A stretch of 64,000 bases of DNA, taken from Tenrec ecaudatus. Its lineage: Eukaryota > Chordata > Mammalia > Afrosoricida > Tenrecidae. Every line of letters starts with the position of its first letter. Positions within the stretch are counted from its first letter, which is position 1. Below, in pieces: positions 4,416-60,940 of the stretch. The stretch spans positions 18,189,001 through 18,253,000 of the forward strand of contig NC_134546.1 in assembly GCF_050624435.1 (NCBI RefSeq), written 5' to 3'. The notes beneath the pieces are model-generated. The model saw only the letters and a program-made list of their open reading frames with translations. It was not told the DNA's origin and searched no databases. The translations under genes were made by a program, and so were the position numbers.

Positions 4416-25734
<21,319 letters not shown>

Positions 25735-28734: not shown

Positions 28735-29652
28735 CTAAGAGAGTGATGTCTAATGGGTGCATAAGCAAATGTGGTGAAGAAAGCTGATGGTGCCCGGCTA
28801 TCAAAAGAGATAGTGTCTGGGGTCTTAAAGGCTTGAAGGTGAACAAGCGGCCATCTAGCTCAGAAGCAAAAAAGCCCACATGGAAGAAGCACACCGGCCA
28901 GTGCGATCACGAGGTGCCAAGGGACCAGGTATAAGGCATCATGCAAAAAAAAAAAAAAGATATGTGTGTACGTATGTGTATATATGTATATGTATATATA
29001 TATCATATTAAATGAAGGGGGAAGTGCAGAGTGGAGACCCAAGGCCCAAGTGTCGGCCAATGGAGATCCCCTCATAGAGGCGTTTACGAGAGGAGATGGG
29101 TTAATTAGGGTGCGAGGTAGTATCGATGAAGAACACAGCTTTCCCCCAGATCCTGGATGCTTCCTCCCCCCAACTACCATGATCCGAATTCTACCTTGCA
29201 GGGCTGGATAGGACAGAGGCTGTACACTGGTACATATGAGGGCTGGAGGTACAGGGAATCCAGGGTGGATGATACCTTCAGGACCAAGGGTGTGAGGGAC
29301 GATGCTGGGAGAGTGGAGGGTGAGTGGGTTGGAAAGGGGGAACTGATTACAAGGATCCACATGTGACCTCTTCCCTGGGAGAGGGACAGCAGAGAAGGGG
29401 GGAAGGGAGACTCCGGATAGGGCAAGATATGACAAAATAACGAGGTATAAATTACCAAGGGCACATGAGGGAGGGGGGAATGGGGAGGGAGGGAAAAAAA
29501 AAAGAGGACCTGATGCAAGGGGCTTAAGTGGAGAGCAAATCCCTTGAGAATGATTGGGGCAGGGAATGTATGGATGTGCTTTATACAATTGATGTATGTA
29601 TATGTATGGATGGTGATAAGAGTTGTATGAGTCCCTAATAAAATGTAAAAAA
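28735..29652 (+). mobile_element. Family A LINE-like element, about 0.9 kb of 3' region
   Basis: The best copy here. It contains gtgcataagcaaatgtggtg, gtgcccggctatcaaaagag, aaggtgaacaagcggccatc, a simple AT-rich patch (28935-29005), atcctggatgcttcctcccc, ggatccacatgtgacctctt and the common end gagtccctaataaaatgt plus A-rich tail. Poly(A) signal and tail with variable 5' truncation support a non-LTR retroposon. No reverse transcriptase is present in this piece. Confidence 0.65.
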
Positions 29653-29790
29653 AGAGGAGAAAAAAATGATTAGGGCAAAGACTGTACAGATGTGCTTTAT
29701 ACAATTGATGTATGTATATGTATGAACTGTGATAAGAATTGTATGAGCCCCTAATAAATTGTTAAAATTTTAAATAAAAAAAATAGAGTG
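29653..29790 (+). mobile_element. Family A LINE-like 3' end, short tandem neighbour
   Basis: A second tail (gtacagatgtgctttataca, tgagcccctaataaattg) directly after the previous A-rich tail. It may be a separate insertion into the tail or a duplication. Confidence 0.55.
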
Positions 29791-38046: not shown

Positions 38047-41000
38047 TCAGGCTTGAGGGGGTTCCCGGCAGCGCAGGCACTGGGTCATCTCCGCATGGTA
38101 CTGCTCCACCTGCAGGGTGCAGCTGGAGAATCCAAACTGGGAGTGGAGCCGGGATGAGGCTTCAGCCAGGACAGCTTCGGGGTCTGCTGCCTCATCTGTG
38201 GGAAGTGATAAGAGGGAGATCAATCCCTAGGGAGGGTGTTGGGAAGCAGGTGGGGGGCTGAGATAAGGAGGGCTGAGCCTGTCCCTCTATAGAGGGGGAC
38301 TCCAGGCTCCCCCTGCACCCAGCAGGGGCTGGACTGCCTCTCTGTATTGTATGAGCCTGTAAAAGCACTGGAGCACTGGGAGAAGCTCAGGTCTACTCTA
38401 CCACACTCACACAGGAGACTGTTCTTTCCCGATTCTGCACTTTCTCTGGGCGTTACACAGCGTCCCACCACTCGGTATTCTGGGACGAGCCAGATGTTAA
38501 CCATTCTGTCCCATTGTCCCTCCCCGTTGTCACCGCCTGTCCCACAAGTCACAGTGTGTTTGGCAACCACGCAGCATGTCTCTGGCTGCTTCTTGCATCT
38601 GGAAGGAACTCAAAAATCCTTTGTCAGCTCGTGAGTCACCGTATGTATTTTTTTTTTAACCGTATGTATTTTTAATAGCTGGGTCACAGTGTAGATATAG
38701 CTTCATGTCCAGCCCCTTTTCTCCCACCATTAAACATACACACTTTTCCTAGCCTGCGTGACCCCATCTTCATAAGGCATGAAGACGCACTGAGTGGAGG
38801 CGCCATCATTTACCTGGCAGTGCCCCTTGTCACTGGGCCTATAGGTTTTAGGGAGCTTTTTAAAGGATCACCAGCTCACTCAGCTACTTCTGAGGGGGTA
38901 GAGTTTTCCCCAGAGCTTCCTTATCCCCAAAACGTGTGTGTGTGTGTGTGTGTGTGCGCGCGCCTGTGAGTGAGAGTGTGTGTGGGACAGACAGACAGAC
39001 AAGCAGAGAGGCTGCAGCAGTCCTCATAATCCAGGCTATTGACCCAGGTCAGGAGGGAATTGGCCTGGCCAGTGTGGACTCACCAATGGCCAGGTGTGCG
39101 GAGGCAACATGGTAGGTGAGCGTAAGGGCCCACAGGTGCAGCTCGTGGGTGGCCCGGACTCCTGGCACCGACAGCAGTGTGTCCCGCACCGGCTCAAACC
39201 CCACTCCGCAGGGAGTACCTGAAACCAGCATCCACCATGCACCCTGTTATCAGGGTTGCTTTGCCAGGGGCAGCCCTCGCCAGGCCCCACACTCCCCTCC
39301 TGAACCTTCTGAACCACAATTCACCCCTCACCGGACTCCCCTGCCCAGCAACAGGAAAACAAGGCCCGAGAGCAGGTGCCAGGAGGGCCGGGAAAGGGAG
39401 GGGAACCGAGACGCTGGCTCACCTTCCATAAGGACTCGAAGTACATCTCGGAGGGTTGGTGCGGTGGATCCAAGAGCACAGATGGAGAAGAGGAAGGTGC
39501 TGATGGGGTCAGCTGCCTTGTACTGAGGCTGTCGAGGAAGAGACCCCCTCCTAAGCCCAGGAGCCAGGGACCTTTAAGAGGCAAATCCAGGGGCCTCTCC
39601 AGCAAATCCAACCCAACAAGCCCCGCTGAGAGGCTGCTTATGGGGCTAAGGGGGTGTGACCAGGGCTGGGAGTCTGGGGAGCTAGAGGCGGCTAAGCTGT
39701 CTGGAATGAGCCCCACTTGCCCAGCAGTACCTTGAAGTAGATGAGGATGGAGGCAGCCAGGACCCCGAAGCTCTGCAGGAGATCCCCCAGCACGTGCACA
39801 AAGGCTGCCCGGACGCTGGTGTTCCCCAGGGGCAGGGGCTCCCCGGGCCCCTCCTCCAGGGGCGCATACTCAGACCCCCTAGACCCGTGGCTGTGGGGGG
39901 GCCCAGCCTGGTGCAGCACAAAGGCCATCCTGAGGGGCAAACCAAGAAGCTGAGCCCGGGCAGGCTGCTGGTCCACCAACCCGCCTCCTCCCACCCACCA
40001 GGCACCTCCCCACAGCCTTGTCTGAGAGCCACAAAGAAGGTGGTCCAGGTGGAGACCAACTGGACTTGGTGCCAGGAGTCCTGGGTTCAAGTCTGGCCCT
40101 ACTACAAAACAGCTAGATGACCTAGCCAAGTCAACTAGTCACCTCTCAGGTGCTTAACGGATCCAGTTGTCTCTGAGCTGTAGCTCTCTATCCCAGACCC
40201 AGAGCAGTGCAGTTGAGAATTGTGTGAAGGGGGATGGTGTGTCAGGGCCTGGGGAGAGCCAGTACCCCCTCCTGGTGCAGGGCCCCTCCCCTTGGGCCCC
40301 ATGCGGTGCCTGCTGCCCCTGGCACGCACAGCAGATTGGCACAGACGGCGATGCTGGCGGTCAGCAGCATGGCACCCCCCTCGATGTGGTAGTCGCTGTG
40401 CAGAAGGCGGATGAAGGCCAGGTACAGGAGGATGCCTGTGACCACCCAGAGGGAGACCACAGAGGCCAGCGCCCCCAGCGTCTCTGCGGGGTAGGGGTGG
40501 GGGCAGAGACAAGCTGTCAGAGGCCAGCAGGGTCCCCCACCCCAACACACCCTCGGACAAGATTGGAGGACCCGCTAGGCCAGGCAGGGACCTTACCTGA
40601 GCGGTGCCAGCCAAAGGTCATGGTGCGGGTGGCTGGACGGGTGGAGAGCCAAAGGGAGAAGAGGCTGGCCATCATGCTGCCCACGTCCGCCAGCAGGTGG
40701 GCTGCATCGGTCATAATGGCCAGGCTGTGCGCCAGATACCCACCTGCAAGGTGTTTCCATTTAAAAACTATAAAGCTGTGTGCCTGTGGGTGTGGGTGTA
40801 TAACACAGACGGGCAAGACACATACTAGAGTGTGAGTTGTGGTTTTCTCCCATGACGGCCTCACGGGGCATTCGTATGACTGGCTTTCTCTCATCCACAT
40901 GTGTCTAGCTCTGTCCCTCATCCCCTCTCTCGTCCTGAGTCCTGGGGCCCCTTCAGAGCATTCATCGCCCCCCCTCCCGGCCATCTCTGCCAGGGCGACT

Positions 41001-48767: not shown

Positions 48768-49418
<651 letters not shown>

Positions 49419-55335: not shown

Positions 55336-55520
55336 TGTGGCACAGATGCCGCACCTTGGGCTGCTAACCACAAAGTCAGCAGTTGGAAACCATCAGTCAC
55401 TGTGGGAGAAAGACGAGGCTTTCTACTCCCATATAAGGAGTTGCAATCTCAGAAACCGACAGGGCCCTTTTCTACTGGATTGCTATGAATCAGCATCGAC
55501 TCGATAGCAGTGAGTTTTGG
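55335..55520 (+). mobile_element. AfroSINE, sense
   Basis: aaagtcagcagttggaaacc, gaggctttctactcccatat, and the tail atcagcatcgactcgatagc are clear. It lies exactly between an antisense and a sense RTE copy. Confidence 0.75.
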
Positions 55521-56942
55521 TGGAGAACCCACAGTGCTGAAGGAAGAAGCTCAAGCTGCACTCAATGCATTAGCCAAAAACAGGGTACAGGAATGGATGG
55601 AACACCCACTGGAATGTTTCAGAGCCAAAGAAGCACTGGAAGCACTCACTCAATTTTGCCAGGGTATTTGGAAGACACCTGGCCACGTGACTGGAAGAGA
55701 GCCATATTTGTGCCCATTCCAAAGAAAGGAATGCTCAAGCTATAGAATGCTATCAGTGAGGTGGCACACAAGTCTTAAGATCATCCAACAACTGTTGCAG
55801 CAGTACATTGACAGGGAACTGCCAGAAGTTCAGGCCAGGTTCAGAAGAGGATGTGCACCATTGTTGATATCAGGTGGATTTCGGTGCAAAGCAGAGACTG
55901 CCAGAAAGATGTCTACTTGTGTTTCATTGACGATGCAAAGGTGACTGTGTGGACCATATTCTGGAACACTTCATTATGCACATTCAGAAGTAGTACATGG
56001 AGCAAGAGGCCGTTGTGCGAACAGAACAAAAGAATACCGCACGGTTTATAATCAGGAAAGGGTGGGTCAGGGTTACATCCTCTCACCATATTTGTTCAAT
56101 CTATATATGGGGCAGATCATCAGAGAAGCTGGATTATATGAAGAAGAGTGTGGTATCAGGATTGGAGGAAGGCTTATTAACAACCTGAGGTATGCAGATG
56201 ACACAGCCTTGCTTACTGAAAGTGCGGAGGACTTGAAGCACTTGCTGATGAAGATCAAGGATTGCAGCCTTCAGTGTGGATGACAACTCCATGTAAGGAA
56301 GACTAAAACCCTCACGACTGGATCAATAGGTCACATCATGACAAACGGACAAACGGTTGAAGTAGTCAAGGATTTTGTCTGACTTGGATCAAGAATCGAT
56401 GCTCATGGAAGGCAGCAGTTCAGAGATCAAAAGAAATATTGCATCAGGTAAACCTGCTGCACAGACCTCTTTAGAGTATTCAAGGCCAAGGATGTTTGCT
56501 ACTTTGAGAACTAAGATGTGCCTGGCCCATGCCATGATATTCTCCATTGCATCATATGCACGTGTGAGTTGGACATTAAGTACGGATCACAGAAGAATTG
56601 ATGCATTTAAATGGTGCTGGTGAAGAATATTGAAAATACCAGGTACTACTAAAAGGACACACAGATCTGTATCAGAAGAAGTATGACCAGGGTGCTCCTT
56701 AGGGGCAAGGATGGCAAGACTTCCTCTCACAGACTTTGGATATATTGTCAGGGGAGACCAGTCCCTGGAGAAGGACACCATGTTTGGTGAAGTGGAAAAA
56801 GAGGGTTGACAGTGGCTGCATCAATGGGCTCGGCACAGGAACAATTGTGAGAATGATGCGGGACGGTGCAGTGTTTCATTCTGTTGTGCACAGGGTAGCT
56901 GTGGGTCTGAGCTGACTCAATGGCACCTAACAACAACATGTT
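55520..56942 (+). mobile_element. RTE/BovB LINE, RT to 3' end, sense
   Basis: Translated pieces: EEAQAALNALAKNRVQEW, IDRELPEVQARFRRG, YILSPYLFNLYMGQIIREAG, GGRLINNLRYADDTALLTES with the RT catalytic YADD intact, then SIASYARVSW and RRIDAFKWCW. The end reads caatggcacctaacaacaac, the RTE 3' terminus with a CAA-type tail. Several frameshifts and stops separate these pieces. It lacks the 5' half. Confidence 0.85.
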
Positions 56943-59784: not shown

Positions 59785-60438
59785 AAAAAACAGTTCATTT
59801 TTTAGAGCAGTTCTAGGTTTATAGAAAAGTTACATCAATAGACCGAGTTCCCACAGCCCAACTTGCGCCCAGGCACATCCTTCCTCCTGTTAACATCTTG
59901 CGTTTCTGTGATACATTGTCCACAGTAGGACCAGCAATGAAACATTGTTACTCGCTCAAGTCCCTAGCTCACATAGGGGTTCATTCTGGGTGTTGTACAG
60001 GCTTGTGGGTTCTGATGCACGTTTTTGAGTCAGCACAACAGTATTCTACAGAACAGCTCCACTGCCCTGAAAATGCAGTGTTCCATTTAGTCATCCCTGC
60101 CCATGCCCTGGAGCCTCTGACAACCATGTATCTTTTTACTGGCTCTATAGCTTTCCCTCTTCAGACTGACATATAGCTGGAGTCACACAGGGTGTAGCTT
60201 GCCCAGACTGCCTTCATAGATGTAGTTGTATGCATTTAAGGGTCTTCCGGGGCTTTTCATGGCTCATCTTTTTATATTGCTGAATACTAATATACTCTTT
60301 TGTATGGATGGACACGTTTATCCATTCACTATTTTAAGAAATATTTTTGGGTAGTTAGAAATAAAACTGTAGAAATATCTGTATGCAGATTTTTATGTGG
60401 ACACAAATTTTCATCTCACTTGGGCAAATACCGTAGAG

Positions 60439-60629
60439 CAGTGGTTCTCATCCTTCCTAATGCCGCAAACCTTTAATACAGTTCCTCATGTGGTGGTGAC
60501 CCCAACCATAAAATTATTTTCATTGCTACTTCATCACTATGATTTTGCTACTGTTATGAATTGGGCAACCCCTGTGAAAGGGTCGTTCAACCCCCAAAGG
60601 GGTCGAGACCCACAGGTTGAGCACCTCTG
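60439..60629 (+). mobile_element. SPIN-type hAT DNA transposon (non-autonomous, internally deleted)
   Basis: 191 bp with inverted ends: left cagtggttctcatccttcct, and right, read inverted, cagaggtgctcaacctgtgg. The inner bodies (tttaatacagttcctcatg, accataaaattattttc, cctgtgaaagggtcgttc, cccaaaggggtcgagaccca) match my memory of the SPIN_NA family closely. The middle is shortened relative to that consensus. Flanks ccgtagag (60431-60438) and tcttagag (60630-60637) are a worn 8-bp duplication of the hAT TAGA type. SPIN elements are non-coding here and moved by a hAT transposase. It is inserted in an older L1. Confidence 0.88.
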
Positions 60630-60676
60630 TCTTAGAGCATGATTGATAGCTCAAATGGTCAGCCTATGTTTAGCTT

Positions 60677-60863
60677 AAGGAGCCCTGGTGAAGGAAGCGG
60701 GTTATCAGTTGGGCTGTTAGTCACAAGGTCAGCAGTTCAAATCCACCAGTTTCTCCATGGAGAAAGATGAGGCTGCCTACTCCCAGAAACCCGAGGGAGC
60801 AGTTCTACACTATCCTGTGAGGTCACTTTGAGTCAGAATGGAGTCACTCGCAGTGGGGCACAA
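60677..60863 (+). mobile_element. AfroSINE inside the L1
   Basis: Sense copy of the Afrotherian tRNA-derived SINE, from ggagccctggtgaagg through the box-B-like ggtcagcagttcaaatcc to tgagtcagaatggagtcac. It splits the L1 match, and gtttagctt / gttgagctt at its borders (60668-60676, 60864-60872) look like a target duplication with one change. Confidence 0.8.
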
Positions 60864-60940
60864 GTTGAGCTTTGTAAGAAACAGCCAAGGCGTTTCCCCA
60901 CCATGGGTACTCCATTTCTACCTTCCCAGCGGGAAGGATG

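Follow-up and report, generated by a model that had tools for sequence, protein, structure and literature searches.

A short non-autonomous hAT element, very probably of the SPIN family, in the genome of the tenrec Tenrec ecaudatus

SPIN belongs to the Buster group of the hAT transposons, and the target of TcBuster is given as nnnTAnnn, according to PMC3499496. The presence of SPIN in tenrec, dated to 15-46 Mya, and its arrival there by horizontal transfer are already published, and tenrec is the sole afrotherian SPIN host named in the excerpts of PMC5857283 on which we draw. PMC3183009 names SPIN_NA_1_Et among the families of bat. Tenrec also harbours OposCharlie1 (OC1), a further DNA transposon that moved horizontally, for which Table 1 of PMC3621081 gives 6,837 copies in tenrec at 8.1% from their consensus. 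AfroSINEs are described, in PMC2211313 and PMC9223172, as a SINE family unique to afrotherians.

To this background we add one locus from a 64,000-nucleotide stretch of the Tenrec ecaudatus genome (contig NC_134546.1, 18,189,001-18,253,000; hereafter the window, meaning the whole stretch analysed). We confirmed a non-autonomous hAT-type element of 191 bp at 60439-60629, far above chance, whose inverted ends and worn 8-bp duplication were established from the sequence and from comparison of the genome with itself. The window copy is very probably an ordinary member of the very abundant and already described SPIN family, in a host, tenrec, where that family is known. We regard it as almost certainly a dead, non-autonomous SPIN of the hAT superfamily (Buster group) residing in the tenrec genome. 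The element and its surroundings comprise the following features:

60231..60430 (+): older interspersed repeat entered by the element, left part as far as searched (joined-flank search)
60431..60438 (+): left target-site duplication CCGTAGAG (flank of the element)
60439..60629 (+): very probable non-autonomous SPIN (hAT, Buster group), short subfamily, G54/C99 type, 191 bp (sequence, genome-wide copies, consensus)
60439..60454 (+): 5' terminal inverted repeat, consensus CAGTGGTTCTCAACCT (consensus ends alike at 15/16)
60614..60629 (-): 3' terminal inverted repeat, minus-strand consensus CAGCGGTTCTCAACCT (consensus ends alike at 15/16)
60630..60637 (+): right target-site duplication TCTTAGAG (flank of the element)
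60638..60673 (+): older repeat, part between the element and the AfroSINE-like SINE (joined-flank search)
60680..60869 (+): AfroSINE-like SINE within the same older repeat (profile match 60699-60857; edges by eye)

The element starts with CAGTGGTTCTCA, and its end, read on the opposite strand, is CAGAGGTGCTCAACCT. The sequence-only reading had placed the limits at 60439-60629 between 8-bp duplications, and this placement was borne out: the ends were confirmed, and the two flanks, CCGTAGAG and TCTTAGAG, are identical at 6 of 8 positions, with a central TA. A sensitive self-comparison of the 64-kb window for a second SPIN copy returned only the element itself and one 16-base match (E 0.4), and an Rfam search of 60300-60900 yielded three matches, every one under its gathering score.

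We examined 78 loci, of which many were just 500-1,000 bases in length, and found a SPIN match in 44. Pieces were accepted as full length when a single alignment started by position 15 and ended from position 173 of 191, a rule that 31 pieces passed and by which the others were dropped. The 31 consist of the window copy and the 7 closest of its scored genome matches, 17 copies from loci drawn by an exact sequence pattern (one of them the second copy in locus L042), and 6 copies from stretches picked irrespective of SPIN. Their consensus is 193 bp long, with inverted ends. Leaving out the 8 similarity-selected copies yields a consensus of 194 bp whose two ends match at 15 of 16 positions, short terminal inverted repeats as in the Buster group of hAT.

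The target-site rule of the Buster group is visible across these copies as well as in the window flanks, in the form of 8-bp duplications of the type nnnTAnnn. In 20 of the 31 full-length copies, at least 6 of the 8 positions match between the two flanks; when flanks were re-paired at random in 2,000 trials, a mean of 4.8 copies and a maximum of 11 reached this level. The central TA occurs in 25/31 left flanks and 25/31 right flanks, and in both flanks of 21/31 copies.

To characterize the abundance of the family, we searched the 3.918-Gb tenrec genome (2,140 contigs) with a 26-base piece of the element that contains no CpG. This piece has 4,593 exact matches (2,277 + 2,316) and, with up to 3 mismatches, 56,278 (28,322 + 27,956); the reversed 26-base pattern, used as a control on the same 3.918 Gb, gave 0 matches both exactly and with up to 3 mismatches. 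The relaxed count is about eight times that printed for OC1 in tenrec, which was obtained by another method. With the element and its flanks as query, the genome returned 3,545 candidates; 40 were scored and all 40 matched, the 39 besides the window itself being 87-92% identical. A Poisson fit to the exact and 3-mismatch counts gives 11.2% change per site and ~84,000 copies, while fits with uneven rates to the same counts give ~121,000, 230,000 or 331,000 copies depending on the dispersion assumed, with correspondingly higher divergence. Random 10-kb stretches, one in each of nine large contigs, held SPIN in 5 of 9 cases (one stretch has 345 N), and of two more 10-kb stretches, whose positions were set manually, one held 1 copy and the other 0; the six copies in the ~110 kb sampled thus scale to 78,000-465,000 genome-wide. 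By the Poisson estimate, ~1.4 copies are expected per 64 kb, and the window holds 1. Pace and colleagues reportedly put SPIN in tenrec at nearly 100,000 copies in 2008, a figure that our ~84,000-copy estimate fits.

To examine the insertion site, we excised the element and the neighbouring SINE, fused the flanks, and searched the joined sequence against its own genome. It was found in 26 places, comprising 3 pieces of the window and 23 matches elsewhere. Of these outside matches, 22 cross the SPIN junction without an element-size gap (genome and query spans are within 10 bases of each other); the SINE junction is crossed as well by 19; in five alignments that we inspected, the target site is single-copy and the gaps are only small. 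The 22 continuous matches are therefore paralogous empty sites, and the continuity of the joined flanks elsewhere indicates that the target was an older interspersed repeat, entered later by both SPIN and the SINE. We take this older repeat to resemble the 3' end of an L1.

The AfroSINE background that the sequence-only reading described was recovered as an abundant AfroSINE-like SINE: a profile derived from the SINE copy in the window detected 22 stretches there and 128 across the 311 kb examined. The derived SINE consensus has a middle stretch, which is not known from the Paenungulata subfamily. A reverse transcriptase remnant (RVT_1), presumably of RTE/BovB type, lies at 55945-56280 (+), ~400 bases past a SINE match at 55337-55519. 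A 116-bp unit is repeated head-to-tail at 29549-29767 (1.9 copies, 87% matches) and resembles the 3' tail of the afrotherian RTE LINE.

The sequence-only reading had also noted that the window copy lacks the middle of SPIN_NA. The middle is indeed absent; its absence is not special to this copy. We drew the first 30 exact 26-base matches along one contig (C1) and found 16 with a full-length short copy, 5 with a longer copy that retains the middle, and 9 that were broken or unclassed. The longer copies (L035, L036, L043, L045 and L051) span 321-483 bp and carry an inner stretch that the short form does not have; among the 9 broken or unclassed loci, L053 keeps the middle with a 3' part that is not clean, and L042 has a short copy interrupted by an unrelated insert. 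With the short form at 16/30 and the longer form at 5/30 of these loci, lack of the middle characterises a subfamily, and a deletion private to the window copy is ruled out by the other full-length short copies together with the longer copies in the genome. The frequency of the short form is readable from the pattern-drawn loci and cannot be read from the 31 aligned pieces, because the full-length rule favours copies that span the internal junction.

The copies fall into two types by consensus position 54 (T or G), which is linked to A or C at position 99: among 37 copies, 10 have G at position 54, 26 have T and 1 has another base. The window copy is of the G54/C99 type. Mean divergence is 0.079 for the G54 type (8 copies) and 0.142 for the T54 type (22 copies), with T values of up to 0.41 that we take for broken or misaligned copies; the claim of an age difference between the types was accordingly dropped. 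In L042, the short copy at 1465-1876 is split by a later insert that by eye looks like an AfroSINE/RTE tail, and a second SPIN copy lies at 2476-2673. If the insert is such a tail, elements of this kind were still mobile after SPIN arrived.

The nearest named relatives of the window element are probably SPIN_NA_1_Et and its sister SPIN_NA families of tenrec, whose ends, body and abundance fit what we observe. For URR1A and URR1B of murine rodents, which we take to be the rodent SPIN, we used an uncurated SPIN_NA/URR1-type string of 311 bases. It matches the ends and the body, as well as much the greater part of the middle carried by the longer tenrec copies; the tenrec short form differs in lacking ~119 bases (positions 127-245) of the string. 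The string was composed with the long copies already in view and was therefore not blind. Its identity to the short genome consensus is 97.6% across 127 bp and 100% across 66 bp. For the window copy, the identity of this non-blind string is 92.7% across 124 positions and 91.3% across 69. In a search for outside references, exact SPIN patterns had 0 matches in the viral contigs and genome contigs scanned, a distant DNA search of phages with SPIN returned a single match, too short and weak to be informative, and a literature text search for SPIN sequence strings found none.

Could the element instead belong to a native hAT/Charlie family, inherited vertically among afrotherians and neither SPIN nor horizontally acquired? 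Similar ends are common to hAT families, and our comparison was made within one species, both of which leave some room for such an origin. The uncurated SPIN string, however, matches not just the ends but the body too, and the mean divergence of ~10-12% is young for a mammal-wide Charlie family; such families are generally far older than this. We consider a native family very unlikely. Still less credible, to the point of being negligible, is that the resemblance arose by chance or that the sequence is a fragment of a larger repeat that only looks like an element. The imperfect target duplication (6/8) could be taken to speak for such a reading; against it stand 56,278 genome matches compared with 0 for the reversed control, and the finding that, once the element is removed, its flanks join into a single uninterrupted repeat at other places. 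The reversed control and the joined-flank matches refute both versions.

The assignment to SPIN made from the sequence is supported by the structure, the target-site rule, the copy number and the age of the family, with the family name drawn from the uncurated SPIN/URR1 sequence; the tenrec host that the sequence-only reading proposed is supported as well. Copy number is very high, as expected of SPIN in tenrec, and the divergence is in keeping with 15-46 Mya.

Dates were obtained with a rate of 2.9173e-9 per site and year, which PMC4079192 gives as the tenrec rate along with hAT transfers, including that into tenrec, at 15-46 Mya. The window copy departs from the 31-copy consensus at 14 of 191 positions, 7 of them at CpG, which gives a non-CpG distance of 0.042 (7/173; ~14 Myr) and an all-site distance of 0.077 (~26 Myr). 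The 95% interval on the 7/173 non-CpG differences is 1.6-8.2%, and the consensus of 23 copies that were not similarity-selected gives 12/179 non-CpG differences. Since the value shifts from 7/173 to 12/179 with the consensus used, the window copy alone dates poorly.

The family can be dated from groups of copies. Mean non-CpG distances are 0.049 (17 Myr) for the 7 closest scored copies, 0.0735 (25 Myr) for the 17 pattern-drawn full-length copies, and 0.101 (K2P, 35 Myr) for the 6 from stretches picked irrespective of SPIN; all 31 together, partly selected for likeness, give 0.072 (25 Myr). The first two groups read young because one was picked by similarity and the other by possession of an intact 26-base piece, and owing to this selection bias we relied on the 6-copy group and its 35 Myr. 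The Poisson fit to the pattern counts corresponds to 41.5 Myr, and both 35 and 41.5 Myr fall within the printed range of 15-46 Mya. The split between tenrec and golden mole is placed at 49.4 Mya in PMC13063843, so that a family age of about 35-42 Myr postdates it.

The window also contains several features apart from the element. Exons of a pyrimidine-synthesis gene occupy 10272-24707 (+), where three open frames contain domains of carbamoyl-phosphate synthase and of aspartate carbamoyltransferase; the gene is most likely CAD, a name that we infer. On the minus strand, 40245-40574 is a possible cation-efflux transporter exon with a Pfam match of 20.6 bits, under the cut-off of 26.6, which we assume to be SLC30A3; the neighbouring frame at 39685-40086 has no Pfam match. 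The open frame at 48768-49349 (+) matches ribosomal protein L36e across the full profile (96/96) and looks like an intact, intronless processed retrocopy.

We propose that a SPIN transposase made elsewhere would have recognised the ends of the element and excised it, and that a staggered cut of 8 bases would have let it insert into an old repeat, which lies ~20 kb away from the SLC30A3-like exons. Expansion of the family may have followed its horizontal entry into the lineage of tenrec, as claimed in the literature, and the window copy would have undergone only decay since its insertion. As one of tens of thousands of copies left by a well-known horizontal transposon transfer, this element carries little weight alone; its use is as a dated landmark and as a check on the afrotherian, and tenrec, reading of the window.
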